Below are positions 1-22,960 of a stretch of DNA of 42,095 nt, piece after piece; position 1 is the first letter of the stretch; each line of letters starts with the position of its first letter. The position numbers and the translations under genes are program-made. Source of the DNA: Streptosporangiales bacterium (GTDB lineage Bacteria > Actinomycetota > Actinomycetes > Streptosporangiales > WHST01); contig WHST01000050.1 of assembly GCA_009379955.1 (NCBI GenBank), positions 1-42,095 on the forward strand, given 5' to 3'. Under the pieces are notes generated by a model. The model saw nothing but the letters and a program-made list of their open reading frames with translations. It did no database searches and was not told the origin of the DNA.

Positions 1-2
1 CC

Positions 3-110
3 GTCAACGCACCCCACCTCGTCGCCCTCGTCCGAACAGGAGCGACCTTCAAGAAAGGCAAACTCGTCGAACGACCCGACGACCAACCGAGTCAGCAGCA
101 AGCTGCATGA
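3..110 (+). CDS. C-terminal tail of a probable transposase (partial)
   Basis: An open frame enters the window from the left and stops with TGA at 108-110, giving 35 residues (VNAPHLVALVRTG at the start, QQQAA at the end). The tail resembles the ends of actinobacterial IS transposases, but I cannot assign a family from 35 residues. The DNA after the stop, up to about 143, reads as the end of an insertion element, because the HTH gene on the other strand loses family-like sequence exactly there. The rest of the element lies outside the window. Confidence 0.4.
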   Translation, partial: VNAPHLVALVRTGATFKKGKLVERPDDQPSQQQAA

Positions 111-669: not shown

Positions 670-671
670 AG

Positions 672-699
672 GGACGTTTATACGCTACATAAGACGTCC
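672..699 (-). promoter_or_regulatory. Leaderless promoter with dyad operator for the HTH gene
   Basis: On the minus strand TATAAA (682 down to 677) lies seven bases before the ATG at 669, so transcription would start at or next to the start codon. The arms GGACGT (672-677) and ACGTCC (694-699) form a dyad with a 16-bp centre that overlaps the -10 box, as expected for an autoregulated XRE gene. No convincing -35 box is visible. Confidence 0.5.
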
Positions 700-748
700 T
701 CGCGTCGTCCCGGTCCGTGGTTCAACCGTCCTTGATCCGTGGCTAAGG

Positions 749-753
749 CTTAG
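749..753. repeat. Target site duplication, left copy (CTTAG)
   Basis: CTTAG sits immediately outside the left inverted repeat of the IS1380-family element, and the same five bases follow its right end at 4596-4600. Confidence 0.75.
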
Positions 754-891
754 CCTCGATCCGTGTAGCCGCTGAGGTGATGGCTTGGTCGCGGGCAGGT
801 GGTGGTAGTTGCCGGTTGGGCAGGTCGTGGCTGCTGGTCTGCCCAGCTTTCCATTTGGTTCTCCGGTCGGGCCTGTGCGGCGGTGGTCAGG

Positions 892-2298: not shown

Positions 2299-2299
2299 C

Positions 2300-2365
2300 A
2301 GTGCCTTCTGGATCGGGCCGGATCAGGACATCAACACTCCAGATTCTCCCGACCCAGAAGGCACT
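2300..2365. repeat. 18-bp inverted repeat upstream of the transposase
   Basis: AGTGCCTTCTGGATCGGG (2300-2317) pairs with 2348-2365 in inverted orientation with one mismatch and a 30-bp loop. It lies between the transposase start and the IS end. It could be a hairpin limiting transposase expression or a subterminal transposase-binding site; the sequence does not decide. Confidence 0.7.
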
Positions 2366-2466
2366 TCCTCCATCACCGCGCCGAACGATCAGCTACTCGG
2401 TCCGTCAAGTCGGCCTGGGGCGCGGTGCCGGGGTTGCTCCCGGCCCGTTTCCCCAGGCCGCTCGCC

Positions 2467-2500
2467 GAACCCGGCGTGCGTGTCTCCACGCACCGGGCTC
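2467..2500 (-). ncRNA. Group II intron domain V (catalytic hairpin)
   Basis: On the minus strand this 34-base segment begins GAGCCCGGTGCG and ends CGCACGCCGGGTTC, so its two halves pair into the compact hairpin typical of domain V. A GC-rich hairpin that fits domain VI (GGCCTGGGG pairing with CCCCAGGCC) follows between about 2412 and 2460. Confidence 0.85.
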
Positions 2501-2516
2501 TCCACGGATATTGTCG

Positions 2517-3980
2517 TTATGCGGGAGTCAAGGCCCACGGCGATGGGATGTTGTTGCTGCGCCAGCGATAGCGGGTCACGGGGACCGCTTCGAGGTTGAA
2601 CAACGTGGTCCCATTGGCGGACAGCGGTTTCCATGTCCCTTGCGGGGTGGTGAACCGGCGTCGGAAGTCCTTCCATCCCCACCGGTGCAAGGTCCGCAGC
2701 CAGCAGGTCACCCGCCACCAGACGAAGTGGGCCAGCCGACCGAAGGTGTGCTTGCACACGGCATGCCGGAAATAGTTGGACCAACCGCGGATGACCTGGC
2801 CAAGCCGGGTCAGGACGGTCCCTGGGTCCTGCTGTGACGTCCTGTTCGTCAGTGCACGGATCTTCGCCTTCAACGACCGGATGGGCCGGTCAGCGATGAA
2901 GGTGTAGACGTGCCAGGTGTTCGTGCCTGGTTTGCGGCGCCACTGGATGCGGAACCCCAAAAACTCGAACCCCTCGGCCAGGTTCACCACCCGGGTTTTC
3001 TCCTCCGAAAAGGACAGTCCCATGGTGGCCAGCACGGCCGCGACATCTTCGCGCAGGTCATGAACATCGTCCTCGGTGCCATGCACGAGTACGGCGAAGT
3101 CGTCTGCGTACCTTACGATCCGCCAAGTCGGCAGGCCCTTGGAACGACGCCATGCACGCCGTGAACTGGTGGACATTGTCCCGCCCGGTTGCCACGGCCG
3201 GTGAACATGCTCATCGAGCACGCTCAGGGCGATGTTGGCCATCAACGGCGACAGAATCCCGCCCTGCGAGGTGCCGGTGTGGGTGTCCTGAAACCGACCG
3301 GACTCGGTCATGATCCCGGCCTTCAGAAACGCCTTCACCAACGCCACGACGCGTTTGTCCTTGACCCGTGCCCGCACCCGATCCAAAAGAGCGGAGTGTG
3401 AGATCTGGTCAAAACACGCCTCGATGTCCGCGTCCAGCACCCACTGATAGCCGTGGGTGCCGAACTGGTGTATCTCAGCGATCGCGTCCTGAGCCCGCCG
3501 GTTCGGCCGGAACCCATAGGAGACCGGCACGAAGTCGGCCTCAAAGATCGGCTCCAGCACCAGCTTAAGCGCAGCCTGGACCACCCTGTCGGCGATGGTG
3601 GGGATGCCCAAACTTCTCAGTTTCCCCGACCCGCCGCGCTTAAGGATCATCCGCTGACGCACCGGCACCGGACGAAACGATCCGTCCTTGATCGATGCGC
3701 GCAGATCGTCCAGGAACCCCGGGACACCGATGCTCTGCTCCACGGCGGCGGCAGTGAGACCGTCGACCCCGGGAGTGTTCGCACCGGTATTGCCGGCGAC
3801 CCGAGCGAACGCCATCAGCAGCGTCGCCGGGTCGTGCACAAAGTTGAACAGGTCGTCGAACCGGCGACCGGGATCGGCCACCGCCCAACGGTGAAGCTTG
3901 GTCTGCATACCCGATACCCTGTTCCAAGGTTCACGCCCTGGAGCAGGATCGCCAGGATTCCCTGGCGCGTCTTTCGGCAT
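2517..3980 (-). CDS. ltrA: Group II intron reverse transcriptase/maturase
   Basis: The 487-residue protein binds its own intron RNA, helps it splice and copies it into DNA during retrohoming. Reverse transcriptase blocks are in order: LGIPTIADRVVQAALKLVLE (about 125-144), SYGFRPNRRAQDAI (about 154-167), TGTSQGGILSPLMANIAL (about 235-252) and the catalytic RYADDFAVLV (YADD about 291-294). The maturase X region follows, with RLGQVIRGWSNYFRH and a C-terminal RYRWRSNNIPSPWAL. No HNH endonuclease domain is apparent, so insertion would not use second-strand cleavage by this protein. The frame is intact. The stop at 2517 lies only 16 bases before domain V, the normal arrangement. The upstream limit of the ORF is uncertain; the start could be the in-frame ATG at MQTKLHRW, near residue 25. 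Confidence 0.93.
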   Translation of the reverse strand: MPKDAPGNPGDPAPGREPWNRVSGMQTKLHRWAVADPGRRFDDLFNFVHDPATLLMAFARVAGNTGANTPGVDGLTAAAVEQSIGVPGFLDDLRASIKDGSFRPVPVRQRMILKRGGSGKLRSLGIPTIADRVVQAALKLVLEPIFEADFVPVSYGFRPNRRAQDAIAEIHQFGTHGYQWVLDADIEACFDQISHSALLDRVRARVKDKRVVALVKAFLKAGIMTESGRFQDTHTGTSQGGILSPLMANIALSVLDEHVHRPWQPGGTMSTSSRRAWRRSKGLPTWRIVRYADDFAVLVHGTEDDVHDLREDVAAVLATMGLSFSEEKTRVVNLAEGFEFLGFRIQWRRKPGTNTWHVYTFIADRPIRSLKAKIRALTNRTSQQDPGTVLTRLGQVIRGWSNYFRHAVCKHTFGRLAHFVWWRVTCWLRTLHRWGWKDFRRRFTTPQGTWKPLSANGTTLFNLEAVPVTRYRWRSNNIPSPWALTPA

Positions 3981-4595
3981 CGCAGTGTCCTTCCCTTCTC
4001 ATACCCACTGCCGCCCTTCCCCATGTGACCGGCTCTCCCGGCCTCGGAGTACTACGACGGCTCCGCCCCTTCCCGACCCGATCGGTCGACGGTGGACCCA
4101 GCCCGTCCGACCCGCGCTGGCAGCACGGACGGCAGGCAGCATCGGGAAGGTTCCCGTGTTCACTGCTGCTCGCTCGACGAAGGAGGAGCCCAGTTGTGCC
4201 CCTGCGGCATCGCCACGGCTAACCCGCAGCACTTCACCGTGGCCTCCCGGCAGCCATCCACAAGACCACCCAGGAGTTCCCCACCGACCAGACCTTCGGT
4301 CCGACCAACAGGTGCGCACCGCACCCGGCCCATATCCACCAGATTTGAGCCGGCAAGCCTTTAAGGGACGTAGAAACTGGTTCCTGTCCGTACTCCTCTC
4401 CATCACGCTCGCCGGACCCGCACCATCTGGCAGTGCTGACACGTCCCGGCTTTGTCAGGGCTGCTCCCACCCACCCCGGCACCTCCCGGAGCAGGCTGCC
4501 CTCAGCTTCACCGCCCTGCTGCGACAGGGTCAGCGGCGAAGGCCTCTCACCTCCTACACAAAACAGCAGCGCCTCACGGCGCACACGGATCGAGG

Positions 4596-4600
4596 CTTAG
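4596..4600. repeat. Target site duplication, right copy (CTTAG)
   Basis: CTTAG immediately follows the right terminal repeat of the IS1380-family element and matches 749-753. Confidence 0.75.
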
Positions 4601-4628
4601 GCATGCGACGCGATCTGGTGTGGGAGTG

Positions 4629-4829
4629 ATGAGGATGCACGCGATGGACGATCTGGCTACCGACGACGACCTCGATGCCCAGCAGCTCGCGGCGATGCAG
4701 TCTCTCGACGAGGCCCGTCGCGCCGATGAGGTTACGGCATCCGACGCCGTGGTGATCGAGCGAAAGATCCGCATCGGACGAGTCGCCGGAGCGCGTAAGC
4801 GCCTTACGGCGGCAAGGCGCCGCACCTGA
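4629..4829 (+). CDS. Small hypothetical protein
   Basis: The frame encodes 66 residues if the ATG at 4629 is used. GGGAG at 4622-4626 is better spaced for the second in-frame ATG at 4635. The product has an acidic N-terminal half (DDLATDDDLDAQQLAAM) and a strongly basic C-terminus (GARKRLTAARRRT), consistent with a small helical nucleic-acid-binding or partner-binding protein. I do not recognise a family. It begins about 30 bases right of the IS1380 target duplication, so the insertion may have separated it from its original upstream sequence. Real but unassigned is the best statement. Confidence 0.45.
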   Translation: MRMHAMDDLATDDDLDAQQLAAMQSLDEARRADEVTASDAVVIERKIRIGRVAGARKRLTAARRRT

Positions 4830-4898
4830 ACCGGTAGGTCAGCCTCGGGGATGACCGGCCCACCGTAGGGCCGCGGGCGAGGCGGTCCCGGCGGGGGA

Positions 4899-5132
4899 GT
4901 GCCGCAGCGGAACGAACGGGTCGCGGCGATGCTGCAGTGGCTCGTCAGGGCACCGGCAACGCCGCGGCGGTGCTCGGTGACGAGATGCTCGCTGTGGCGC
5001 ATGATTGGTGCAGACCAGGGCGGTCGGCGGGAAGACGTGCGGTGTCGGGCGTGTGGCCGGCCGTGCACGGAGGCGGAGTACTTCCTGGCGGTGAAGCGGC
5101 GGCTCGAAGAGAAGGCGGGGACGGCGTCGTGA
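4899..5132 (+). CDS. Small cysteine-motif protein, unknown function
   Basis: This is a frame of up to 77 residues ending VRCRACGRPCTEAEYFLAVK and then RRLEEKAGTAS. The C-x2-C-x3-C cluster (CRACGRPC) resembles a half zinc-binding knuckle as seen in small actinobacterial regulators. The N-terminal part is less protein-like, and the start may lie downstream of the GTG at 4899, for example at the ATG at 4929. The main support is the coupling: its TGA (5130-5132) overlaps the GTG start of the next gene by the four-base GTGA, a typical operon join. The function is unknown. Confidence 0.45.
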   Translation: MPQRNERVAAMLQWLVRAPATPRRCSVTRCSLWRMIGADQGGRREDVRCRACGRPCTEAEYFLAVKRRLEEKAGTAS

Positions 5133-5791
5133 CCGAGCTCGTGGAGTTCTTGCTGGCCCGTGGGCCCGATGACGGCCTGCCGAATTGGGTCGGTGAAGTC
5201 GGTGGGCTCGTGGGTACCGGTCTCAGCCTCGTCGCGATCATCATCTCCCTGCTTGTTCGCCACGACAACAGACGCCACACGGAAGAAGCACCAGCAAGGC
5301 AGCGGTTGCAGGCCCGGCTCGACGACGTCACGAGGGAGATGGCGGATCTGGTTCCAGCGGTGCAGGCAGCGGGAAGACTCCTCCAGGAGGAGGACGATTT
5401 CGCGGCGGCGGTAACGGGGCTTCGTGAGTCCGCAATGACGATCCGGCGATGCGTGGGGGCAATGAGGGAGTTGACCATCCCCCCTCTCAGCCCTCAATTA
5501 GAGTCTCTCGGCGCTGCGACGGTTGATCGGGGCCCGGACGGTGAGCCCAGCGTCGCGGACGGGCTGGTCTCCGCCGCTGCGTGGATGGAGCGTGTGGTCA
5601 GGTTGCGCAGGGACGTCGAGGACGGCTCGGGCGGCACAGCCAAGGTCCGTGACCTCATGCAGGCGAGTCGAGGCTTGGAGACGACATCACGTCACTTGGG
5701 TGTGAAGGTTGGCCGGGCCGAAGAAGCGGCCCTTGTCGTCAGTGACAGTGTCCGGCAGCTCGAGTCACGCGGAATGGGGAAGCTCCCTTGA
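5129..5791 (+). CDS. Membrane-anchored helical protein, unknown function
   Basis: The frame is open further upstream, but the GTG at 5129 overlaps the stop of the previous small gene, and the sequence from there looks like a natural N-terminus. The product has 220 residues: a short lead, a single transmembrane segment (VGTGLSLVAIIISLLV, about residues 29-44), a basic stop-transfer (RHDNRRH), and a long helical cytoplasmic region rich in Arg, Glu and Ala that may form coiled coils (QRLQARLDDVTREMADLV). No catalytic motif is visible. It lies in a group of small unknown genes inside the presumed integrated element. A structural or sensing role at the membrane is possible, but no function should be assigned. 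Confidence 0.6.
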   Translation: MTELVEFLLARGPDDGLPNWVGEVGGLVGTGLSLVAIIISLLVRHDNRRHTEEAPARQRLQARLDDVTREMADLVPAVQAAGRLLQEEDDFAAAVTGLRESAMTIRRCVGAMRELTIPPLSPQLESLGAATVDRGPDGEPSVADGLVSAAAWMERVVRLRRDVEDGSGGTAKVRDLMQASRGLETTSRHLGVKVGRAEEAALVVSDSVRQLESRGMGKLP

Positions 5792-5914
5792 CCGGTTGAC
5801 CTGCAGCCCGCATGATCCGCGACAGACGGGCAGCACCATTGATGCACAGCCGCATCCGTCGCTTCGTACGATCGTTCACCACCGACTGACAGACCCGAAG
5901 CGGCAGGAGGTCGA

Positions 5915-6433
5915 ATGGGTACCGCGGCGCTGGTAATCGCGATCTTGAGCCTCGTCATCGCCGTGTTCTCGTTGGGCTGGCAGGTCGCCGCCTGGCTCCT
6001 GGAAACCGGACGCGTCCGGGTGAAGTTGCAGCACGGCGTGGTCGGATGGAATGGGATCGTCGTCGGCGACGTCCACCGGGACGGTCGCCCTCGCGACCTA
6101 GCCCCTCTACGCAGTCAGGGCGCCGAGGGCCCCGAGATTCTTGCCATCAAGGTCACGAACGTCGGCCGAAGCCATGTGACCGTCACTCGGTACGGAACCC
6201 GAGCGCCCAAGTCCAAGAACGAACTCGTGCCAGTAGCGGACGTGATGGGACCGTCGTTGCCGCACCGCTTGGAACCAGGCGAGAGCGAGACGTGGTGGAT
6301 GAACATGGACGGGGTGCGCGCACTCGTCCACGCATCTAAGGTCCTCGCGCCACGCGAACGGAGGGTGGACATGTTCGTCGAGACCGGCTTGGGCAGAACG
6401 CTCTACACGTCGCGTCGTATCGTGATCAAGTGA
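5915..6433 (+). CDS. Membrane-anchored protein, unknown function
   Basis: The 172-residue product starts at an ATG preceded by AGGAGG (5905-5910) with good spacing. Residues 3-29 are one transmembrane helix (ALVIAILSLVIAVFSLGWQV), followed by a soluble domain of about 140 residues that looks beta-rich (AIKVTNVGRSHVTVTRYGTR, then LEPGESETWWMNMDG). This pattern of one anchor followed by a beta-sandwich-like domain is common in actinobacterial hypothetical proteins and does not indicate an activity. Its TGA overlaps the GTG of the next gene by four bases, so the two are translationally coupled. Like the preceding membrane-anchored gene, it has an N-terminal anchor and probably a cytoplasmic domain. 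Confidence 0.7.
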   Translation: MGTAALVIAILSLVIAVFSLGWQVAAWLLETGRVRVKLQHGVVGWNGIVVGDVHRDGRPRDLAPLRSQGAEGPEILAIKVTNVGRSHVTVTRYGTRAPKSKNELVPVADVMGPSLPHRLEPGESETWWMNMDGVRALVHASKVLAPRERRVDMFVETGLGRTLYTSRRIVIK

Positions 6434-6648
6434 CCGGAACGACGGCCAGGCTGGGTGTCGATGCGTACGTGCTGGCGGCGTTCCTGTGGCCGGACGAGCA
6501 GCCCGAAGTCGGGGCGGCGCGGATCCGGCAGTGGGCACAGCGCGGACACGTCGAGGTCGTGGACTACGCGAGGGCCGGGCGGACGCGGCGGGCGCTGTTC
6601 GATCCGGCGGCGGTGGCTCGACACGCCGCCCAGAACCGCACTGCTTGA
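6430..6648 (+). CDS. Small winged-HTH-like DNA-binding protein
   Basis: The product has 72 residues and starts with GTG overlapping the upstream stop (GTGA). The sequence ARIRQWAQRGHVEVVDYARAGRTRRALFDPAAVARHAA has the layout of an excisionase/MerR-like winged helix: a helix pair ending in Trp-Ala, a short beta-turn and a wing ending in a Phe-Asp-Pro start of the next helix. Such proteins act as small transcription factors or recombination directionality factors on mobile elements. Coupling to the membrane-anchored gene suggests the two work together. The fold call is from pattern only. Confidence 0.55.
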   Translation: MTGTTARLGVDAYVLAAFLWPDEQPEVGAARIRQWAQRGHVEVVDYARAGRTRRALFDPAAVARHAAQNRTA

Positions 6649-6705
6649 CGATCATGAAACGGGCTGTCACAGTGCGCGTGGATCAGTGCGCCCCGAATCT
6701 GGGCA

Positions 6706-7590
6706 CTAGTCCCGTCGTTTGAGCATATACAGGATCACGGCGTACAACAGCCCCAGGCTTCCGTACACAACCGCTGTCTCGAAGACGTCGATGACGCCGT
6801 GTACTGAGAGTGCCGCGGTTATGAACGGCGTGGCCAGCAGGAGCCACAGAACTGTCTCCTCGATGGGATCGATCCGGCGCTCGCGCTCACCGTCCGCCTC
6901 GTCCCCCGATATCGTGGGGTCCTCGACAACGCGTTCCTGCAGCAGTGGCTCACTCGCGGCCGTCAGCTGGTCGACAAGCTCCTGTACCGCGGTCCCGGTT
7001 TCAGGGTCGGACAGCACGTCCTCAGCGACTTCGTTGAGCAGGTCGACGTCGACGTCCTGCACCAGGGCTTCCAGATCCTCCGCGACATCATCGGCATGGT
7101 CTGCGAGTGTCGAGAGTGTGCTGGGGTCCTCGCGCAGCGCGGTCCCGATCGTGCGGAGGGCGTTCACCCGGTACGTGGTGCTGAAGACGGAGAGCGCCGT
7201 GCCGCTGGAGAGCACCTGGTCGCGGTTGTAGGCGGACATCGCGGTGGAGATGCGGTCCAGTCCAGCGGCGCGCACGGCCATCGAGCTCGTGATCGCCGCA
7301 GCGTGTCGCCCGATCGCCGTGATATCTCGGAACTGCGACTCGAAGATCTTCGTGCTGAACGCCTTGTGCGCCATGCCGGCAGAGGCAATGTTGGTCGCCG
7401 CGAGGGCTTTGACCTCGGGCATGACGGGGCCGACGATGTGGGACCACTTCGCCAGGTCGAAACCCGACGACTTGTATAACCTCGTCGCGTCGATCCCGAG
7501 CATCCGCGCGTATGAATGCCGCCATGGCGCGATGTCGCGTGCGAACTTGCTCGCGATGTCCGCGCCGATCCTCTGGCTGCTTCGGGTCAC
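6706..7590 (-). CDS. Membrane protein, third gene of the toxin-antitoxin operon
   Basis: The frame is open further upstream, but those residues are only a shadow of the antitoxin gene. A GTG at 7590 begins one base after the antitoxin stop and gives 294 residues. Residues 1-150 are helical with no recognisable family (YARMLGIDATRLYK, then FDLAKWSHIVGPVMPEVKAL). Residues 150-240 are acidic (DDVAEDLEALVQDVDVDLLN). The last 50 residues hold two transmembrane segments (TVLWLLLATPFITAAL and AVVYGSLGLLYAVILYML) and end in a basic KRRD. Spacing makes it the third gene of a toxin, antitoxin, membrane protein operon. It could be an effector or a localisation partner of the pair, but there is no motif to show which. 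Confidence 0.7.
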   Translation of the reverse strand: MTRSSQRIGADIASKFARDIAPWRHSYARMLGIDATRLYKSSGFDLAKWSHIVGPVMPEVKALAATNIASAGMAHKAFSTKIFESQFRDITAIGRHAAAITSSMAVRAAGLDRISTAMSAYNRDQVLSSGTALSVFSTTYRVNALRTIGTALREDPSTLSTLADHADDVAEDLEALVQDVDVDLLNEVAEDVLSDPETGTAVQELVDQLTAASEPLLQERVVEDPTISGDEADGERERRIDPIEETVLWLLLATPFITAALSVHGVIDVFETAVVYGSLGLLYAVILYMLKRRD

Positions 7591-7591
7591 G

Positions 7592-7900
7592 TCAGCCGAC
7601 CACGTGTCGTTCGTCGCCGAAGTCCGCGACGACCCGGAGCCGGCCGCCGAGGGCCTGAACGTATGACTGGATCGTCGCGATCTCCGACCGGCTGAGCTGC
7701 CCTCGCTCGATCTGCGACACGCGGCGCTGCGATACGCCCATCTGCTCGGCGACGTCAGTTTGTGTGAGGCCCTGCCGGTTGCGGAGCTCGGCGAGCCGGT
7801 GCAGACGGACCTCGGCGAGCATGCGGTCACGCTCGGCGGCGACGGCGTCCTCGTCGACGTCGAGTTCGGCGCGGATCTCGTCCCAGCTGCGAGTGGTCAT
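7592..7900 (-). CDS. HigA-type XRE antitoxin
   Basis: The 102-residue protein starts at the ATG at 7900, which overlaps the toxin stop by four bases (ATGA). It has an N-terminal helical tail (MTTRSWDEIRAELDVDEDAV) and then an XRE helix-turn-helix domain with the sequence GLTQTDVAEQMGVSQRRVSQ (about residues 50-70) and IERG. In this family the protein neutralises the RelE-like toxin and represses the operon by binding a palindrome at the promoter. The toxin-first order is the HigBA order. The next gene begins one base after its stop. Confidence 0.88.
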   Translation of the reverse strand: MTTRSWDEIRAELDVDEDAVAAERDRMLAEVRLHRLAELRNRQGLTQTDVAEQMGVSQRRVSQIERGQLSRSEIATIQSYVQALGGRLRVVADFGDERHVVG

Positions 7901-8244
7901 CGTGTCCTCCTCAGGTGCTCGTCGTAGCGGTCGTCGGCGATGGGGACGTTCTTGCGGTACCAGCGGTCCCAGTTCCCGGCCTTGTCGCCTGCGACGAGCA
8001 GGACACCTTGGCGGTGTGGGTCGAATGCGAACAGGATCCGCATCTGGGATCGCCCTCCGCTGCCTGGTCGTAGCTCCTTCATGTTGTGGTGGCGGCTCGT
8101 GGTGACGCGGTCGGCGAGCGGGCGGCCGAGCTGCGGGCCCTCGATGCGGAGGACCTCGATCGCAGCGACGACTTGGACGCGCGTCTCGGGGTCGAGGCCG
8201 ACGAGCCACTGCTCGACTTCCTTGACCGCGAGAACCGTCCACAT
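7897..8244 (-). CDS. HigB/RelE-type toxin (Gp49-like family)
   Basis: The product has 115 residues, the usual length for the phage-derived Gp49-like HigB group of RelE-fold toxins, which cleave mRNA. Family features are the N-terminal EVEQWLVGLDPETRVQVVAAI helices, RPLADRVTTSRHHNMKELRP in the middle and the strand RSQMRILFAFDPHRQGVLLV followed by AGDKAGNW. The conserved ELRP and R-x-LFAFDP positions are intact, so the toxin is probably active. The ATG at 8244 lies six bases after a TAGAAT -10 box, suggesting a leaderless message. The stop overlaps the antitoxin start, giving coupled translation. Confidence 0.9.
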   Translation of the reverse strand: MWTVLAVKEVEQWLVGLDPETRVQVVAAIEVLRIEGPQLGRPLADRVTTSRHHNMKELRPGSGGRSQMRILFAFDPHRQGVLLVAGDKAGNWDRWYRKNVPIADDRYDEHLRRTR

Positions 8245-8250
8245 GATCAG

Positions 8251-8280
8251 ATTCTAGAACGTATGCGTAGTAGTAGTCAA
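8251..8280 (-). promoter_or_regulatory. Promoter of the toxin-antitoxin operon
   Basis: On the minus strand TTGACT (8280-8275) and TAGAAT (8256-8251) are 18 bases apart, close to the consensus for a housekeeping sigma factor. TAGAAT ends six bases before the toxin ATG. The palindrome TTCTAGAA overlaps the -10 box and is a candidate operator for the antitoxin. Confidence 0.7.
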
Positions 8281-8380
8281 GCATTCTTAGAGTCTGATGC
8301 AGAACGCCCGGGGCATCGATCACAACTCCACCCAGGAGACCCCCGTGCCGATCACTGACGTCGACATCCTCTACAAGCTG

Positions 8381-8629
8381 TTAGCTCTGTGGCGAGATCG
8401 GGTGCGGCCATGCTGGCTCGTTCTCGTAATCGAAGTCTGCCGAGAATCTGCCATCGCTCGTGAATCGCAGCCTCGCGGTTAGCCACCCTCCCTTACCCGG
8501 TCGGTAGGTGCGTTCGCGGAGCGTCTCCAGCAGGTCATCGAGTTCGAAGCCAGGACTACCGACAGACTCCGCGCGAGCTAAGGCGGACAGCTGGTTACGC
8601 GGTAGCGTCGGTGGACGTGAGTTGCTCAC
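8381..8629 (-). pseudogene. YezG-like immunity protein fragment
   Basis: The 82-residue frame carries LLETLRERTYRPGKGGWLTA and FSADFDYENEPAWP, which resemble the central part of YezG/DUF600-type immunity proteins, where a Met/Tyr-rich helix precedes a GKGTW-like turn and a FDYDNEP-like strand. Relatives continue for about 30 more residues after the NEP motif. Here a TAA (8383-8381) ends the frame just after it. The same frame past the stop reads VEDVDVSDRH, a plausible remnant of the missing tail. The N-terminal part also lacks most of the expected domain. It is probably a broken gene left at the element's edge. No partner toxin is visible nearby. Confidence 0.45.
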
Positions 8630-8733
8630 ACCATGCTCACGGACGCACCAGCACCTATGCGGATCCGGCGGCTTGCCCCAGCACCCAAGTCAGCTTCTGA
8701 CCTGCGGGGATGTCATTTTCCGGCATCGGGAGG

Positions 8734-8758
8734 CACGTCCTGAGACGTCTCAGACGTG
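8734..8758. repeat. Near-perfect palindrome abutting the attachment site
   Basis: CTGAGACGTCTCAG (8740-8753) is a perfect palindrome. It is extended by CACGT on the left (8734-8738) and ACGTG on the right (8754-8758), with one unpaired C at 8739. The last base coincides with the start of the tRNA fragment. It could be a recombinase-binding arm or a terminator-like hairpin at the end of the element. Confidence 0.7.
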
Positions 8759-8803
8759 ACTTTTAATCCGCGGGTTCTGGGTTCGATCCCCAGGCGGCCC
8801 ACC
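8758..8803 (+). other. 3' half of tRNA-Lys(TTT): distal attachment site of an integrated element
   Basis: The segment starts in the anticodon arm (GACTTTTAATCC, anticodon TTT), continues through a complete T arm (CTGGG, TTCGATC, CCCAG) and ends with the acceptor strand GCGGCCC and ACC. The 5' half of a tRNA is absent: the bases before 8758 do not pair with the anticodon stem and are an unrelated palindrome. This is what remains at the far end when an element integrates into the 3' part of a tRNA gene. From the orientation, the element lies to the left and the intact tRNA-Lys should sit beyond the left edge of the window. Confidence 0.8.
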
Positions 8804-8999
8804 CATGACCTGCACAAACGCCTAGGGTTGTTCTTGGGTGTCTTGATTCGCACTGGTGGTGGTGCCGCTCGCCCGGCTCACCTGGGCCGTCACGATCAGT
8901 GGCGCGACCGCGGCTGCGAGAGCGAACGGCACCCTTCCCGTCCAGGTCGTGGCTGTCGTCTGCGTCATCTCCTCGCACGGTTGCTCGTATCCGTGGCCG

Positions 9000-9017
9000 G
9001 CCGGACCATGGTCCGGC
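9000..9017. repeat. 18-bp perfect palindrome
   Basis: GCCGGACCATGGTCCGGC reads the same on both strands. It has no loop and no T run, so it is not an ordinary terminator; a protein-binding site is more likely. It lies five bases before the 11-bp tandem repeats. Confidence 0.8.
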
Positions 9018-9022
9018 GTACT

Positions 9023-9055
9023 GGTTGCCACACGGTTGCCATGTGGTTGCCGGCA
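9023..9055. repeat. Three 11-bp tandem repeats
   Basis: GGTTGCCACAC, GGTTGCCATGT and GGTTGCCGGCA follow one another without gaps. The seven-base core GGTTGCC recurs every 11 bases, about one helical turn, as for a protein binding cooperatively to one face of DNA. Confidence 0.75.
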
Positions 9056-9105
9056 TCGGGGCAGGGTGTCGTGCGGTGACGTCGAGCGCCGGCCGCGCCC
9101 TGTCG

Positions 9106-10269
9106 TCAGACGTGGAAGAGTTTTCGATCCATCCAATCCGCGGCGACCTGGAGCGCGCCGCTGCGGAGGCAGGTCGCTCCGAGATCGGAGTAGACGATCC
9201 TGGTGTCGCTGTGGAGGGCCGGGGCGAGCGCCTTGCGGAACGCGTCCATGAACACGTCGCCGGCGTTGACGACCTCGCCGCCGACGACGATCACCGGTGG
9301 ATCCAGGACCAGCAGCTCGCGGACCAGCTCGGCGATGTCGGCCGCGTAGCGGGTGACCAGTGTGCGGGCGCGTCCGCGCTTGGATCTCGCGGCTGCGAAG
9401 ACGTCGGTGAAGGTCAGCGAGTGCTCCCTGGCATGGCTGCGGATCTCCGCGTTGGTGCCGACCCACGATCTCGTCCGGTCGTCGCCGAAGAACTCGCCGG
9501 CGGCGCCGTGCGCCCCACGGTAGAGCTCCCCGTTGAGCACGAGCCCGCAGCCGATGCTGTCGTCGATCAGCAGTCCGACGACATCGGCCGGTCCGGAGAG
9601 GTTCCTGTGCTCGGCCAGGGTCGCGAGGTTGGCGTCGTTCTCCACCAGGACGGGGCACCCGAACCGTTCCCGCAGCCGATGGTGTACCTCGTCGCCGACG
9701 AGCGAAGGCAGTTCGCCGGAGTTCTGGACCACACCGTCGGCCGACACGACACCGCGCACGCCGGCCACCACGACCTGGAGCTGGTCCGCGGTGAAGGAGA
9801 ACTCGGCCACCGCGCGGTCGACCGCGGCACCCAGGCACTCCACCGGGTCGGGCTCGCGGTTGAAGTCGGCGAGGCTGACCCGCGACTCGCCGACCACCCG
9901 ATCGCGAAGATCGGCGATGACCACGGACAGCTCGTGGCTGGTCAGCGTGACGGCCGCAATGCAGCCGGAGCCGGCGGCGAATCGGAACTCGCGCGCAGGT
10001 CGGCCGCCGCGGGGCGAGCTCGGATTCTGCGCGGTCTCGATCACCAGGCCGCGTTCGGTGAGGTCGCTGAGGGCGAGGTCGACGGTGGGACGGGACAGTT
10101 CGGTCGCCTTGGCGATCGCGGAGATCCCGTGCGCTGCGCCGCTGACTCGGAGGTATCGCAACACCTCGTTGCGGTTGAGGTGCCGCAGCAGGGAGGACTC
10201 GGCGCCGTAGACGTCGATGGCCTGCTTGAGCGTCATGGTCGATTGCGCGATCGGCTTTTCGTCCTTCAT
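9106..10269 (-). CDS. ROK-family transcriptional repressor (NagC/XylR-like, degenerate sugar-kinase domain)
   Basis: The 387-residue protein starts at the ATG at 10269, which overlaps the GH20 stop by four bases. An N-terminal winged helix (RNEVLRYLRVSGAAHGISAI, then ELSRPTVDLALSDL, about residues 30-75) is followed by a ROK domain with VVVAGVRGVVSADGVVQNSG and LVENDANLATLAEH. The sugar-site region reads GLVLNGELYRGAHGAAGEFF, but the usual GEIGH His is replaced and the Cys-rich zinc motif is missing (SWVGTNAEIRSHAR in its place). It should therefore be a regulator and not a kinase, perhaps with altered ligand binding. As the last gene of the glycan operon it probably controls that operon in response to a sugar released by the enzymes. 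Confidence 0.9.
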   Translation of the reverse strand: MKDEKPIAQSTMTLKQAIDVYGAESSLLRHLNRNEVLRYLRVSGAAHGISAIAKATELSRPTVDLALSDLTERGLVIETAQNPSSPRGGRPAREFRFAAGSGCIAAVTLTSHELSVVIADLRDRVVGESRVSLADFNREPDPVECLGAAVDRAVAEFSFTADQLQVVVAGVRGVVSADGVVQNSGELPSLVGDEVHHRLRERFGCPVLVENDANLATLAEHRNLSGPADVVGLLIDDSIGCGLVLNGELYRGAHGAAGEFFGDDRTRSWVGTNAEIRSHAREHSLTFTDVFAAARSKRGRARTLVTRYAADIAELVRELLVLDPPVIVVGGEVVNAGDVFMDAFRKALAPALHSDTRIVYSDLGATCLRSGALQVAADWMDRKLFHV

Positions 10270-12233
10270 GGTCGGCGTGCCTCCAGCAGCGAGAGACAGG
10301 CGATCGACGTGACGAACAGGTTGTCCCAGTCGCTGTCGATGACCAACTTCAGGTATCGAGCCGGAGTGACCGGGAAGGTCACGGTGTGGGCGGGCTGCTC
10401 GTTGGGCAGGATCCCCGACCACACCTGGTGCCAGTCCTGCTGTTCGTCGGCAAGCATGATCCGGATACGTCGAGCCCGCGCCCGGGTGTGGTGGAAGTCC
10501 TCGATCACGCCACCGTCCTGGCGCGGCCAGATCGCCAGACCGGCGAGCGGTCGTGGGCCACCGACGTCGATCACGACATGATGTGGCGCGATCGCCAGGT
10601 CGCGGTGCTGGGTCACCCACTGCGTCTGCGGGTCAGGACTGAGCACATGGTGAACAGACCCGTCCTCGGCCTTGATCTCCTCACTGCTGACCTCGATGAC
10701 GCGGCAGGACCGTGCCGAGACCGCGGTCAGGTTGTCGTCGGCGGCTCCGATCACGTCGGCGCGCTCGTAGAACGTCGCAGCCGACGACGCCGGTGGGCCG
10801 CCCCAGGTTCGATCCGCGAGGACCTGCAGTGGGCGGTGCGAGAAGAAGTGCACCCACCCCGTGGTCCGTGCCTCCGCCTTGTCCATCCATCGGCCCAACC
10901 GGTAACCGAGGAGCAGGTCGTCACTCGGGTAGTCGTCTCGTTCGTAGACGCGCTCGGCGGGCATGTATCCCTCGAAGCCCTGGGGGGACGAGCCGCCCGG
11001 CGTGGTGCTGTAGCCGGGGGTGACGTAGTTGCTACCCCAGTTGACGCCGACGGTCTGGTAGCCCTGACGGGAGAACTCGGCCGGGTCGCCGTCCAGCCAC
11101 TTGCTGATCCTGATGTCCTTGCTCGGTGCGATGCTCACCGGCTGACCGCCGTAGCACCACCACTCCCAGATCTCCGCCCGCTTGCCGCGCTCGCGCAGGG
11201 CCACGGCGAGGTCGTTGACGAAGTCGACCAGCACGTCGCCGGCATAGCGCAGGCCCTTGGAGTGTGCGTACGCGAGCAGCACCGGATCCTGGTTCTCGCT
11301 GGTCTGCAACGGGAGCTCGTCACTGCCGATATGGATGAACTCGCCGCTGAAGACGTCGGCGAGCTCCAGGACGAGCCGCCGGACGAAATCCCGAGCGAAG
11401 TCCGAGGTCATGTCCAGTGTCCAACCGCCGCCCTGACCGCCGGGCCAGCCCGCGTAGTCCATCGCCGGTGACCGCAGCCGGAGCCGCGGCTCGTAGCGGG
11501 TGAGCCAGACGGCGTGACCGGGAAGATCGATCTCCGGGACGATCCGCACGCCCCATTGTGCCGCGTAGGCGTCGAGTTCACGCAGTTCCTGCTGCGTGTA
11601 GTGATCGACCGATGCCAGACCTGGGAACTCGAGGCTCTCGAATCGGAATCCGTTCCACTCGGTCAGGTGAAGATGCAGGCTGTTCAGCTTCATCCAGGCC
11701 ATCCGACGGACCTCGGATCGCAGGTACTCCATCGGCAGGAACTTCCGGCCCACGTCGATCATCTGCCCCCGGACCGTGCAGCGCGGATAGTCGAACGCCT
11801 CACCCTGTGGCAGTGCTCGTCGTTCGGGATCCTGCTTGAGGAGCTGGACGAGCGACTGGCAGCCGTACAGCAGTCCCGACCGGCTGGACGCGACGATCAG
11901 GACCGTGTCGTCGATGTGGAGCCGGTATCCCTCCTCCGGGATGTCGTGGCGCTCGGTGTCGAGGACGATCCGGACGACGCAGCCGGACGTCACCGCGCCG
12001 GAGACGACCCGGGGACGGTGTCCGCACAGCCGTTCGAGATCGCCGGCCAGCAGCCCGGCCACCTCGCGAGCGCTCTCACCGGAGCAGCTGATCGTGAACG
12101 GTGGCTCGAGCAGCAGCCGTCCCGGACGCGGGGTCCAGTGGCGGAGCGACGGTAACGTCGCCGGGCGATCCGGCGGGTCGAGCAGCGGCCCGGGCTCGGT
12201 CCGATCGCCTGTCTTGCCGTCCGAGTGAGACAC
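10266..12233 (-). CDS. GH20 beta-N-acetylhexosaminidase with C-terminal CBM-like domain
   Basis: The GTG at 12233, with GGAG four bases upstream and only eight bases from the preceding stop, gives 655 residues. An N-terminal GH20b-type domain (about 45-135) leads into the catalytic barrel: KLNSLHLHLTEWNGF (about 182-196), PEIDLPGHA (about 233-241) and HIGSDEL (about 301-307). The Asp-Glu pair 305-306 is the expected catalytic pair for substrate-assisted hydrolysis. The last 130 residues resemble an F5/8 or CBM32-like sandwich (TQWVTQHRDLAIAPHHVVID). No signal peptide is present, so it would remove terminal GlcNAc or GalNAc from imported oligosaccharides in the cytoplasm. Its stop overlaps the ROK start. 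Confidence 0.92.
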   Translation of the reverse strand: MSHSDGKTGDRTEPGPLLDPPDRPATLPSLRHWTPRPGRLLLEPPFTISCSGESAREVAGLLAGDLERLCGHRPRVVSGAVTSGCVVRIVLDTERHDIPEEGYRLHIDDTVLIVASSRSGLLYGCQSLVQLLKQDPERRALPQGEAFDYPRCTVRGQMIDVGRKFLPMEYLRSEVRRMAWMKLNSLHLHLTEWNGFRFESLEFPGLASVDHYTQQELRELDAYAAQWGVRIVPEIDLPGHAVWLTRYEPRLRLRSPAMDYAGWPGGQGGGWTLDMTSDFARDFVRRLVLELADVFSGEFIHIGSDELPLQTSENQDPVLLAYAHSKGLRYAGDVLVDFVNDLAVALRERGKRAEIWEWWCYGGQPVSIAPSKDIRISKWLDGDPAEFSRQGYQTVGVNWGSNYVTPGYSTTPGGSSPQGFEGYMPAERVYERDDYPSDDLLLGYRLGRWMDKAEARTTGWVHFFSHRPLQVLADRTWGGPPASSAATFYERADVIGAADDNLTAVSARSCRVIEVSSEEIKAEDGSVHHVLSPDPQTQWVTQHRDLAIAPHHVVIDVGGPRPLAGLAIWPRQDGGVIEDFHHTRARARRIRIMLADEQQDWHQVWSGILPNEQPAHTVTFPVTPARYLKLVIDSDWDNLFVTSIACLSLLEARRP

Positions 12234-12241
12234 ACGACTCC

Positions 12242-14572
12242 TTACTCGATCACTGGATTGCGCAGGTGGATCCACGCTTCGACCAACCCCCACGAAGCCA
12301 TGGAGCGGGCGTAGTGATGACCGCATTCGACTTCGTCGAACGGGTTTCGCCGTCGTCCGTCGTAGCGATCCCGGACATCGACGACCGTGCGGTGCGCGAG
12401 GTCCTGCTCGCCCTCTAGCAGCAGCCCGATCGCCGCGGAGTACTCGAGACCGGTCCACACCTCGGCCCAGTAGGGAAAGGGAAACGGCAGCTCGCGTCCT
12501 CGTGGGTAGCTGGCGTTGACGAGACCGCGTTCGTCGCCCAATGCGTAGCAGCGCCGCGGGTTGACGTGGTCGGCGACGCCATCGAGGCGGTTGTGGTGGG
12601 CGATGCAGCGCAGTGCGGTCGCGATGTGATCGGGATCGAGCGGGATGCCGAGACCGCTGAGCTTGGCCATGGTGACGCCGGCCAGCTGACCGCTGGTGCA
12701 GCCCGTGCCGATCTGATAGTGCGGCTGCAGGGGATCGGAGCCGCCGGGAGTATCGGTCTCCATCCGCAGTCCGTTCGCGATCCGCGAACCCGGGGCGGGT
12801 GGCATGATCGCCTGCTGGTAGTACTCGCCGTTGAAGAGGTGCTCGTCCATCCAGCGGCAGCCCGAGGCCAGCAGTCGCCGGCAGTACGAGGCGAACTCGG
12901 GCTCGGCCATGACGGTGGCGAGCTCGGCGGCCGCGGCGAGTGCGGCCAGGTACCACGACTGCACCTCAGGCGTCGGACCGTAGTACTCGACGTCCATGGT
13001 GTTGTGCTGGCAGCCCTCCATCACGCCGTCCCGGTCGGCGTCCCACCCGCCTTCGACCCAGGCGAACTCGAGGGAGCGGCGGACCGCGGGCCAGAGCTCA
13101 CGGGCACGGGAGTCGTCGCCGGAGCGGCGCCAGGTGCGGTAGAACCGCAGGATCGAACCCATCTGCCCGTCCGCGGCCGCGAATCCCCAGGTCGCTCCCT
13201 CCAAGTGGCGGGGGAGTCCGGCGCGGAACGCCATCAGGCCTTCGTCGTCGAGCGAGTCGACGAACTCTGTCTCGCGCATCGACCACGCCAGGTCGGGGAA
13301 CAGGGCGATGGTGGCGTACTCGTAGTTCCAGACGTGGGTGCAGTTCCCGTGGCAGCTTCCGGCGTCGTCCTCGGTCCCCTCCCAGCCGTAGAAGCGGCCG
13401 TCGGCGCCGCGGAAGACGGTGTTGGACTTGAGCACGGAGAGATTGGAGAGCGCTGCGTCGGCCATGGCCGGCGGCATGCCCAGGGCGATGACGGATCGAA
13501 CGAATCGGACCGACTCGTGCAGGAGATCGGGGAGTGCTCGTCCGAAGTTCCTGGCGCACTCTCCCGCGTCGGCCGCCCGAGTGGCGTAATGGTTGCCGAC
13601 GAGGTGCTGGCTGGGACGGTCGGTCTCCCGCAGTCCGTGCGTCCAGGCACGACGGTACGGGAAGTGCCAGGCGATGACGAAGTCCAGTGACGCTCCGGCC
13701 CCCGGCTCGAGAACGTCGGTCAGGACGAGTGAGCCGACGGGATCACGATCATGGCGTACGTGGTCGCTGACTGCGCCGTCGTGACCGAAGTCCTCCCAGA
13801 ACTCGGCCAGCGCATCGCCGGATGGGGCGTCGAGCCATCGGGTGCGGAACGAGTCTGCCTGCCTGCCCGGCGTATGCAGTGCGATGGTGCCGTCGGCGGG
13901 GGAGCCGTCGCGCCGGGGGTTGCTGCCGAGGAGGACGCTTCCGTCTCGGTGACGGTCGTGCTCGAACCGGGTGCCGGGCCAGGCCGGGGAGTTCAGGGTG
14001 GCGCCGATCAGGTTGGGCATGTTGCCGACGACCGCCACCGTCTGGCGCACACGGGTCGGGTTGGTCAGCCGCACCCGGTAGAGCAGGGCGGGGTGGCCGG
14101 ATGCGTCCGCGTCGCCGGGAACCAGGGGATTGGCGACCTCGACCGCCACTCGGAGCGGAACTGCCGGATCGGCCAGCTCGATGCGTGCGAACGGGTACGC
14201 CGCCGAGAACGTGCAGTCGTGGAAGCGCGGGAGCCCGGGCTGGGGGCTCGGACTGCCGTGCGGTCCTTCGTATTCGTGGTCGAACAGCCGTCCCTCCAGG
14301 ACGCGGGTGTCGACGGTCCCGTCGGCGCCGGCGACGTGGAGCGCGAAGAACAGATGCCTGGGCGTGAACCCGTGGGCTGCCGTGTTGGCGACCTCGACGT
14401 CGACGAGCCGGCCGCGGCCGTCGACACTGATCGCTCCGGTGCCGAGCCCGCCCACCGGGAATCGGATCCGCCGCCGAGCGTCTCCCCGATAGTCCCGGAC
14501 CGTGGGCCAGTCCGAACCGACCCGCCCGGGATCGGCGGGGTACCTGTCAGCGCTGTGCTGTTCGATCGGCAT
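12242..14572 (-). CDS. GH116 family glycosidase (beta-glucosidase/beta-xylosidase/N-acetylglucosaminidase type)
   Basis: The ATG at 14572 lies inside the last codons of the upstream gene (26-base overlap) and gives 776 residues, a normal GH116 length. The N-terminal beta-sandwich has RIRFPVGGLGTGAISVDGRG and EVANTAAHGFTPRHLFFALH. The (alpha/alpha)6 catalytic part shows THVWNYEYATIALFPDLAWS, HNTMDVEYYGPTPEVQSWYL, which should carry the nucleophile Glu, and close to the C-terminus EVECGHHYARSMASWG. GH116 includes human GBA2 and archaeal enzymes active on beta-glucosides, beta-xylosides and GlcNAc; the substrate cannot be chosen from sequence. No signal peptide is present. It is part of the same transcript as GH78 and GH20. 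Confidence 0.88.
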   Translation of the reverse strand: MPIEQHSADRYPADPGRVGSDWPTVRDYRGDARRRIRFPVGGLGTGAISVDGRGRLVDVEVANTAAHGFTPRHLFFALHVAGADGTVDTRVLEGRLFDHEYEGPHGSPSPQPGLPRFHDCTFSAAYPFARIELADPAVPLRVAVEVANPLVPGDADASGHPALLYRVRLTNPTRVRQTVAVVGNMPNLIGATLNSPAWPGTRFEHDRHRDGSVLLGSNPRRDGSPADGTIALHTPGRQADSFRTRWLDAPSGDALAEFWEDFGHDGAVSDHVRHDRDPVGSLVLTDVLEPGAGASLDFVIAWHFPYRRAWTHGLRETDRPSQHLVGNHYATRAADAGECARNFGRALPDLLHESVRFVRSVIALGMPPAMADAALSNLSVLKSNTVFRGADGRFYGWEGTEDDAGSCHGNCTHVWNYEYATIALFPDLAWSMRETEFVDSLDDEGLMAFRAGLPRHLEGATWGFAAADGQMGSILRFYRTWRRSGDDSRARELWPAVRRSLEFAWVEGGWDADRDGVMEGCQHNTMDVEYYGPTPEVQSWYLAALAAAAELATVMAEPEFASYCRRLLASGCRWMDEHLFNGEYYQQAIMPPAPGSRIANGLRMETDTPGGSDPLQPHYQIGTGCTSGQLAGVTMAKLSGLGIPLDPDHIATALRCIAHHNRLDGVADHVNPRRCYALGDERGLVNASYPRGRELPFPFPYWAEVWTGLEYSAAIGLLLEGEQDLAHRTVVDVRDRYDGRRRNPFDEVECGHHYARSMASWGLVEAWIHLRNPVIE

Positions 14573-16790
14573 GGGACTCGGCTTCTGGTATCGGGCGGAT
14601 GATCTCGTGCTGTCCACCGCCGACGATCGTGCGGTGGCCGTCGGGCGTCTCGATCGTGCATCGCGATTGCGGAGGAATCTCCACCTCCAACTGGAAGGTG
14701 TCACCGTCGATCGTCCAGCTGCTGGCGAACGTTCCATGTGCGGTTCGGTAGCTCGCCTGGGCCGCGGTGATGCCGCCGCACGGTTGCGGGCGGACGATCA
14801 GCTCGCGGAAGCCACGGCTGGTCGGAGCCTGTCGCAACCCGGCGACATGGGAGTAGAACCAACCGTCGACGGCGCCGAGCATGAAGTGGTTCTGGCTGAT
14901 GCCGTACGTCGGCCCGTCCCAGGTCTCGGTGAGCGAGGTCGCGCCGTGACGCAACATGTAGCCGTAGCCCGGCCGGTCCGACTGGCACGCGAACCGGTAG
15001 AGCGTCTCGTGGCGATCGTGTGCCGCCAGGACATCGATCAGGGCCGGGAGACCGACCTCGCCGACGTCGACGAAGAACTCGTCGGAGGCGATCCGCTGTT
15101 CGAGCCGGTTCACGACCGCGACCGTCCGGTCCGGTGGCACGATTCCGTACCGCAGCGCGACGGCGATCTCGCCGACCGTGTCCGTGCCGACGGTCGAGTC
15201 GTCGTCGTTCCAGAACTCGGTGCGGACGCGTGCGGCGATGCGGTCGGACTCATCGCGCCAGCGCGCGCTGTCGCCGAGGTGGCCCAGCTCGCCGGCGACC
15301 TGCGACAGGACCGACAGCATCCGTGCCAGCGATGCGGTCGCGACCAGCGGGACGGCGCGCGCCTGCGTCCCGTCCCAGTCGCCGAGGCCGTACCGCACCA
15401 AGCCGTCGACGCGGGAGTCGAGCAGGTGTCGTGCGTATCGGGTCATCGCTTCGTAGTTGTCGTGCAGGACGGAGAGATCGGCGTAGCACAGGTGGAGCTG
15501 CCAGGGCACGTGGACGACGGCGCCGCCCCAGTTCACGTCACCGCGCCAGGGGTCGGGGAACGGGTCCCATTCGGGGACGTACAACGGCAGGTGGCCGTCG
15601 GGTCCTTGGGCCTCCCTGATCAGCAGCATCGTGTTCGTCAGGAGCGCCTGTACGTCGTAGTTCCACTGCAGTACGGGGAACGCGAGGTGGAGCTCCTCGA
15701 GGAAGCAGAGCTTCTCGCGGTGCGGGCAGTCGGTGAAGACCGAGTACATGTTCGAGGTGACGGCCCGGTGCACGATGCGGTGGATCCGGGTGAGGGTGGG
15801 ATCCGAGCACGAGAACTCGCCGGTGGCTCGCGCGTCGGCCGAGATCACGAGCCCACGCACGTCCTCGACGCCGAGCGGCTCGTCCTGGCCGGAGACCTCC
15901 AGGAAACGCATGCCGTTGTAACAGAATCTCGGGTGCCATGTCAGTGGGCGTGGCCCGGATCGGACGGCGTGATACACGGGGTCCCATCCCTCGGTCCGGG
16001 CGTCGATCGTGCCGTCGTCGTGGAGGAGCTCCGCCGGCCGTAACGTGACTCTGGAGCCGGCGGGGAGATCCACCTCGGCCCAACCGGCGAAGTTCACACC
16101 GAAGTCGACGATCTGGGTACCCGCGGCGACGTCACGGATACCGATCGGATCGATCACCTCCCGTACCCGCAGCGGCGGTGTCGTCTTCGCGCTGACCGTG
16201 ATGCCCGCGGGTGTCGCGGCGGCGACGGCTCGCGGCCAGGCGCGCACCCCGGCGACCGAGGTGTCCAGGGGTACGCGCGCGTCGAAGTCCTCGCCGCCGG
16301 TCCAGTTCGACGACCGGGTCTGTCCGAGGGTCGCCCCCCACTCCGTGTCGGTGACGACCTCGCGCGTCGTTCCGTCAGGGTAGGTCAAGGTCAACGAGGC
16401 GCAGGCGGCGAGGTCGCCGTGGTCGCTGATGATCTTGGTCCACCGGTCGTCGTGCCGCTGGGAGCGGTACATCCCGGTGCCGAGCTCGATGACCACGACG
16501 TTCTCGCCCTCGGTGACCAGAGGGGCGATGTCGTAGGTGCAGTACTCGACGCGCTTCGCGTAGTCCGTGTAGCCCGGCTCGAGCAGATCGGCGGATACGG
16601 GATGGCCGTTGACGCAGGCGACGAAGACACCGAGGCCGCTGATGCGGAACGTGGCGGAGCTCGGCTGTCCCGTGCAGGAGAAGCCGGCTCCGAGCACCGG
16701 AAGCGGACCGGCCGGATCGGCCTTCCACTGGGCCGAGGTGATCCAGACGGCTCCGAGCGTCGGCGGACCGTGAGCTTGCGTGTCGCTCAC
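14547..16790 (-). CDS. GH78 alpha-L-rhamnosidase
   Basis: Residues upstream of the GTG at 16790 are only a shadow of the binding-protein gene. The GTG overlaps that gene's TGA by four bases and gives 747 residues. The N-terminal rhamnosidase domain begins VWITSAQWKADPAGP and contains the pattern VNGHPVSADLLEPGYTDYAK. The catalytic (alpha/alpha)6 domain has YSVFTDCPHREKLCFLEELH, where the general acid Glu is expected, and SLTETWDG followed by YGISQNHFMLGAVDGWFYSH, which holds the catalytic base. It would cleave terminal alpha-L-rhamnose from glycans or glycosides by inversion. Without a signal peptide it acts in the cytoplasm on material brought in by the adjacent transporter. Confidence 0.92.
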   Translation of the reverse strand: MSDTQAHGPPTLGAVWITSAQWKADPAGPLPVLGAGFSCTGQPSSATFRISGLGVFVACVNGHPVSADLLEPGYTDYAKRVEYCTYDIAPLVTEGENVVVIELGTGMYRSQRHDDRWTKIISDHGDLAACASLTLTYPDGTTREVVTDTEWGATLGQTRSSNWTGGEDFDARVPLDTSVAGVRAWPRAVAAATPAGITVSAKTTPPLRVREVIDPIGIRDVAAGTQIVDFGVNFAGWAEVDLPAGSRVTLRPAELLHDDGTIDARTEGWDPVYHAVRSGPRPLTWHPRFCYNGMRFLEVSGQDEPLGVEDVRGLVISADARATGEFSCSDPTLTRIHRIVHRAVTSNMYSVFTDCPHREKLCFLEELHLAFPVLQWNYDVQALLTNTMLLIREAQGPDGHLPLYVPEWDPFPDPWRGDVNWGGAVVHVPWQLHLCYADLSVLHDNYEAMTRYARHLLDSRVDGLVRYGLGDWDGTQARAVPLVATASLARMLSVLSQVAGELGHLGDSARWRDESDRIAARVRTEFWNDDDSTVGTDTVGEIAVALRYGIVPPDRTVAVVNRLEQRIASDEFFVDVGEVGLPALIDVLAAHDRHETLYRFACQSDRPGYGYMLRHGATSLTETWDGPTYGISQNHFMLGAVDGWFYSHVAGLRQAPTSRGFRELIVRPQPCGGITAAQASYRTAHGTFASSWTIDGDTFQLEVEIPPQSRCTIETPDGHRTIVGGGQHEIIRPIPEAESHADRTAQR

Positions 16791-22952: not shown

Positions 22953-22960
22953 GTCTCGAC

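Follow-up and report, generated by a model that had tools for sequence, protein, structure and literature searches.

Gene content of the window

The window analysed here, a stretch of 42,095 bp, is contig C50 of a Streptosporangiales genome in full (WHST01000050.1), and the region "to the left" of it was therefore sought on other contigs. A 45-bp segment on its forward strand corresponds to a tRNA-Lys(TTT) gene of which the 3' part alone is present. This segment separates a region rich in mobile DNA from a cluster of catabolic genes. The features are as follows:

1-141 (+), IS256-family transposase copy of which the 3' end lies at the contig edge; also present at one end of contigs C201 and C38 (identical) and of C158 (99%)
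142-669 (-), remnant of an XRE-family regulator, C-terminus cut by the IS; at most 51.5% identity to Streptomyces XRE regulators
892-2298 (-), DDE transposase (PF13701, 2.1e-28)
2404-3980 (-), group II intron with reverse transcriptase/maturase at 2517-3980 (PF00078, 9.2e-35; PF08388, 2.1e-18) and RF00029 domain at 2404-2502
7592-8244 (-), toxin-antitoxin pair: Gp49/HigB-like toxin at 7897-8244 (PF05973, 3.2e-20), HTH partner just downstream (HTH_3, 5.8e-11)
8623-8641 (+), two TGCTCAC repeats 11 bp apart, putative arm-type integrase sites; counterpart at C138:1302-1320(-)
8758-8802 (+), 3' part of tRNA-Lys(TTT), 45 bp, very probably an attR core; 45/45 identical to C138:1403-1447(-)
9106-20393 (-), glycan-catabolic cluster beyond the fragment: ROK, GH20, GH116, GH78, SBP, two permeases (Pfam)

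The RF00029 domain scored 45.5 bits (gathering threshold 40). We take the transposase at 892-2298 to be of the IS1380 type, and the pair at 7592-8244 is presumably a HigBA system. A sub-threshold Rfam match to Ms_IGR-7 was seen at 2299-2413 (+; 40.2 bits, gathering threshold 45), where the transposase gene and the intron adjoin.

The first base of the 45-bp segment lies two bases ahead of the anticodon loop, and its last base is one past the discriminator A. CCA is not encoded, and ARAGORN called no tRNA on the window. A previous sequence-only reading had already described a tRNA-Lys 3' fragment lacking its 5' half, and comparison with the intact gene (see below) confirmed this at 45 of 45 positions. 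That reading had given the repeat as 46 bp, but base 8803 differs and the repeat is therefore 45 bp long. Its description of the surroundings proved accurate: a PF13701 transposase, a group II intron and a HigB-like toxin with HTH partner represent the IS, intron and toxin-antitoxin genes placed on the left, and a ROK regulator, GH20, GH116 and GH78 proteins, a solute-binding protein and two permeases make up the catabolic operon placed on the right.

An intact tRNA-Lys gene and a tyrosine integrase on a second contig

When a 161-bp query was compared with the whole genome (6.6 Mb, 225 contigs), the single other match was identical at 45 of 45 positions with E = 1.7e-16, and is therefore not due to chance. 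No third place was found in the genome at E <= 0.001, and hence no second fragment was listed. A query including the whole tRNA gave further full-length matches on C23 (85%), a tRNA-Lys(CTT) gene, and on C169 (76%), a tRNA-Met gene. The 45-bp match, at C138:1403-1447(-), is part of an intact tRNA-Lys(TTT) gene at C138:1403-1476(-). The same contig encodes a tyrosine integrase at 162-1442(+) (PF00589, 1.4e-25; PHROG integrase, 5.8e-72), which points at the 3' end of the tRNA gene and overlaps it: its reading frame enters the tRNA gene in antisense direction and has its stop codon at tRNA positions 35-37. Reading across an att site is known for some integrases (PMC4383910, in excerpt). Other partial integrase-like stretches are present on C172, C175 and C201, contigs that carry no tRNA-Lys. 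With the C138 integrase as query we found no relative in the genome-contig collection, one match of 21 residues in viral contigs and, among the matches listed for phages and plasmids, distant ones only.

Thus the intact tRNA-Lys(TTT), the adjacent integrase and the shared repeat that the sequence-only reading had proposed to look for were all found in the same genome, on C138. They had been expected to the left of the window; the predicted orientation held, and the location is another contig whose connection to the window is unassembled. C138 and the window end in different multi-copy repeats, so their contiguity is unproven. We infer that they carry opposite ends of a single element, in the order tRNA and integrase on the left, then the element, then the fragment, then other DNA on the right. 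As in tDNA islands, a tyrosine integrase (C138:162-1442) lies inside, beside one end. The core and its orientation relative to the element fit an intact tDNA with a displaced 3' fragment, the presumed order of the ends spanning two separate contigs.

Integrases and tRNA-Lys fragments in related genomes

Of 200 genomes of the order, 137, the present one among them, contain relatives of the integrase (E <= 1e-30). A survey of 29 integrase loci from other genomes recorded the tRNA gene beyond the integrase 3' end. It was Lys(TTT) at 8 loci, Met(CAT) at 6, Ser(TGA) and Arg(TCT) at 3 each and SeC at 1; among the remaining 8 loci, the nearest tRNA lay about 0.8 kb away at two, and there was none at six. 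Seven of the eight Lys(TTT) genes overlap the integrase gene or lie within about 110 nt of it (the other is 849 nt off), and one of the six Met(CAT) genes is 373 nt away. Five integrase frames (L085, L086, L090, L095, L098) pass through tRNA-Lys in antisense direction and terminate at tRNA positions 7-19. This is upstream of the usual core start, and the C-terminus may therefore differ between the integrated and the circular form.

Fragments were then searched in all eight Lys(TTT) genomes and in G029, G018 and G027, which were picked because fragments had already been listed for them. Six of the eight contain fragments; G175 has a 21-nt match only, and no tRNA-Lys fragment was found in 35 kb of G062. 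In the nine positive genomes out of eleven, all 16 fragments lie 3' of the tRNA on the same strand; they are 41-54 nt long and start at tRNA positions 21-35. Arrays of two or three fragments at tRNA-Lys(TTT) are present in five of these nine relatives. Counted by eye among the matches listed, at least 18 of 40 relatives carry tRNA-Lys fragments; at least 13 have one on the contig of the full-length match, and 20 of 20 such fragments among the matches listed are on the 3' side. At G029:C11:61099-61138 (L070), 40 nt from the 5' part of tRNA-Lys (positions 2-41, 100% identical) lie 1.8 kb upstream of an intact gene, and a 3' fragment follows 8.8 kb downstream of that gene. Here the 5' side was perhaps displaced by an element.

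Paired repeats on the element side of both cores

At both ends the TGCTCAC pair is on the side facing the element, which at C138 is the integrase side. From each core we took the adjoining 300 bp of the element, compared the two stretches and ran 392 control pairs. The best 24-mer in direct orientation agreed at 20 of 24 positions, which 2 of the 392 controls also reached, and the best 20-mer at 17 of 20 (17 of 392 controls); at these rates the arm match alone is not beyond chance. An inverted match (19/24) was dropped because 24 of 392 controls reach the same score. The pattern TGCTCACACNNTGCTCACG, set after both ends had been seen, occurs once in the window even with two mismatches allowed (shuffle mean 0.02). 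Among 254 loci, exact matches were found in nine overlapping loci, all of which represent the two known places; there was no third. Paired arm repeats are thus present on both sides of the core, as in heterobivalent integrases of the lambda/L5 type, at the level of sequence. Such paired sites flanking the core have been described for mycobacteriophages (PMC3203893 and PMC10865867, in excerpt).

The same comparison was made for the 16 fragments of the nine genomes that have a fragment on the contig of the intact tRNA. The nearest fragment shares an arm pair with the integrase side in five of nine relatives (G091, G034, G186, G049 and G036), at 20-22 of 24 positions and with 0-2 of 189-197 controls each reaching that score. 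The nearest fragments of G155, G029, G018 and G027 showed no arm match (scores 15-17), and none of the seven farther fragments shared the pair (scores 16-18). The arm repeats of the relatives are spaced by 11 or 12 bp and differ in sequence from TGCTCAC. Of the six genomes with an integrase from the order-wide search, five have the arm pair and G155 does not. Three tRNA-Lys fragments, none of them arm-matched, lie within 55 kb on G155:C1 (3336288, 3350059 and 3371722; L123-L125). The matching TGCTCAC pairs are a second line of evidence linking the window fragment to the C138 integrase. The match suggests a simple way of pairing island ends in fragmented assemblies and of separating cognate from non-cognate fragments in arrays.

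DNA to the right of the fragment and the search for an empty site

The glycan-catabolic cluster (9106-20393) stands outside the proposed element. The sequence-only reading implied that native chromosome follows the fragment; this was not borne out, since 22100-42095 lacks the collinear blocks with G001, a genome of the same genus, that two controls have. The comparison covered 8803-12960 and 22100-42095. For 8803-12960 only short matches were obtained (at most 84 bp among the matches listed), and for 22100-42095 a single 1.4-kb block (83%) plus scattered matches, 4.1 kb in total (E <= 1e-10). As controls, two arbitrary 20-kb stretches gave 10.0 kb collinear on two G001 contigs (C30) and 13.0 kb on one (C70). 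Compared with G001, the sequence past the fragment is accessory and therefore either species-specific chromosome or an older island. Given the missing blocks in 22100-42095, position 8758 may be an internal boundary.

The left flank of C138 has collinear counterparts on G001:C7, where the blocks add up to 7.0 kb, and on JAFMQP010000066.1. In G001 it is located at C7:52.3-66.6 kb and tRNA-Lys at 108.6 kb, on the same contig and strand; the distance between flank and tRNA is about 42 kb there and about 2 kb in C138. DNA 3' of the tRNA-Lys on G001:C7 has no match to the right side of the window. It is collinear with contig C112 of G000, a block that, from names given to its translations, seems to include arsenic- and phosphate-related genes. 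We did not accept C112 as the native right flank because this block could itself be mobile. In JAFMQP010000066.1 the left flank is followed by a tRNA-Lys(TTT) gene of 80% identity and then by DNA without clear match to the window, G001 or C112. No empty site was therefore obtained from the same-genus tRNA-Lys loci of G001 and JAFMQP010000066.1, which differ in their 3' flanks. The search of relatives with the query that included the tRNA gave no match in G002, although tRNA-Lys is present there (the coordinates for JAFMQP010000066.1 are those of G002:C89), and such a search can therefore miss loci.

Two further observations concern these loci. A same-genus metagenome-assembled genome (L258, 11442-11516) has a syntenic tRNA-Lys(TTT) with 80% identity and encoded CCA, perhaps replaced by a past integration. 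A gene 12 kb 3' of the G001 tRNA-Lys (C7:121065-122264) has relatives of 61-64% identity near tRNA-Lys at L071, L072 and L075, where they sit on its 5' side; it is perhaps recurrent cargo.

Origin of the fragment

We consider it very probable that 8758-8802 is the displaced 3' fragment, or attR core, of the element of the C138 integrase at tRNA-Lys(TTT), an integration site already known from Actinobacteria. The main claim of the sequence-only reading, that the fragment marks the distal end of an integrated element, is supported because the intact tRNA, integrase and repeat were found and the arm pairs match. The attP would have contained a 3' part of the tRNA gene, and a tyrosine integrase would have recombined it with the tRNA-Lys(TTT) gene of the chromosome; the crossover presumably took place in the anticodon loop or close to it. 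At the integrase end, the 3' part brought in with attP would have made the tRNA gene whole again (C138:1403-1476), and the 3' part that was there before would have been displaced to the far end at 8758-8802. This would place the element to the left of 8758, including 142-8757, which now holds the transposase gene, group II intron and toxin-antitoxin pair. The TGCTCAC pairs at C138:1302-1320 and window 8623-8641 are probably the binding sites of the integrase arms, and the element presumably once moved. A fragment read from raw sequence thus correctly foretold an integrase and an intact tRNA on another contig.

The fragment could instead stem from an older element of a tandem array, with the C138 integrase serving another element that ends outside the window; position 8758 would in that case be only one of several boundaries. 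Arrays of two or three fragments at this tRNA in five of nine relatives with fragments would agree with this, as would the tandem AICEs published for tRNA-Lys in Frankia (PMC3218068, in excerpt) and the accessory nature of 22100-42095. We nevertheless regard it as improbable: the window arm pair corresponds to the arm of the C138 integrase, a correspondence seen in relatives for five of nine nearest and none of seven farther fragments; moreover, core identity is 100% and the genome holds no second fragment at E <= 0.001. From the window alone, a lone fragment might also be read as a tRNA pseudogene left by deletion or random duplication, in the absence of any element. Since an integrase and an intact gene with an identical core exist, the arms match on the side that was predicted and fragments recur in relatives on one side only, such an origin is hardly credible.

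Beyond displacement by the element of the C138 integrase, we raise one tentative, rather doubtful extension: tRNA-Lys(TTT) might be a layered insertion hotspot throughout the order, in which the glycan region is an older island acquired at this same tRNA, with tandem arm repeats coding for the pairing of fragment and integrase. If this were true, the arm code would allow nested or broken islands to be paired even across contig gaps.

Probable state and class of the proposed element

Frame 3-110 of the IS256-family copy at the left contig edge is 69-74% identical to plasmid sequences, four of the eight listed being annotated as IS256 family transposase. Contigs C150, C90 and C89 begin with the sequence of C138:1-140, which gave only two short, weak matches against plasmids. 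The idea of the same IS at both contig ends was rejected, since the two repeats differ: window 1-141 is the end of an IS256-family gene reading outward, and C138:1-140 contains an open frame ending outward. The smallest contig fetched was 3.7 kb, so short IS contigs may be absent from the set. The C138 repeat truncates the integrase 5' end just upstream of the codons for GSWTYVVDVAPDP, and the IS256-family copy truncates the XRE regulator gene (alignments of the remnant end at residue 174-175 in four long matches of five records). Because of these two interruptions, the element is probably defective now. Contig C201 (L239; 6.3 kb) has the IS256 end of the window at 1-141 plus an integrase-like stretch at 5709-6167 running toward its far end, and no tRNA.

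Apart from the XRE remnant, the recognised cargo is common mobile DNA. The protein encoded at 6706-7830 had no plasmid match, and nine window proteins gave weak or generic matches only in PADLOC, the intron protein matching reverse transcriptases. Relatives of the XRE remnant on three Streptomyces plasmids are found in regions with NUDIX, FtsK, DUF2637, GntR, HTH and integrase genes, an AICE-like set. The XRE remnant therefore suggests an AICE-like origin, which we take as a lead only. FtsK, Rep and DUF2637 queries had no match in 63 of the 225 contigs, the middle of the element being unassembled, and NUDIX had none in the window or C138. Weak GntR or NUDIX matches occur on five other contigs, those of NUDIX on C168 and C208, unconnected.

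That the element belongs to a well-known kind, an ordinary genomic island at a tRNA gene, is well supported. Islander-class tDNA islands with anticodon-centred att sites (PMC4383910, in excerpt) share the end with intact tRNA and integrase, the displaced 3' fragment, the orientation and the internal integrase; here, in contrast, the ends are on separate contigs and a repeat truncates the integrase at its 5' end. tRNA-Lys-TTT is also an established mycobacteriophage attB with cores of 43-45 bp. The account of attB-4 (Boilgate, TribleTrouble, Ximenita) in PMC10865867 describes the same tRNA, core length and paired arm-type sites, with a functional tRNA restored at one end as in our case. Unlike in mycobacteriophages, PHROGs revealed no phage structural family among the nine window proteins. 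Phage integrases are 33% identical to the C138 integrase among the 15 of 2554 matches listed; two of the 2554 phage records are in the 60-80% band, outside those 15.

tRNA-Lys hosts AICEs in Frankia as well, and the accounts of Fcci1033 and Fean5534/Fean5518 in PMC3218068 likewise place a tyrosine integrase there. The same source describes an mdp-nud-xre cluster with an XRE regulator for some AICEs. In contrast to AICEs, only the XRE remnant is present here, with no Rep, FtsK or DUF2637 in the 63 of 225 contigs searched. This remnant lies on the presumed integrase strand, whereas its relatives on the Streptomyces plasmids are on the opposite one.
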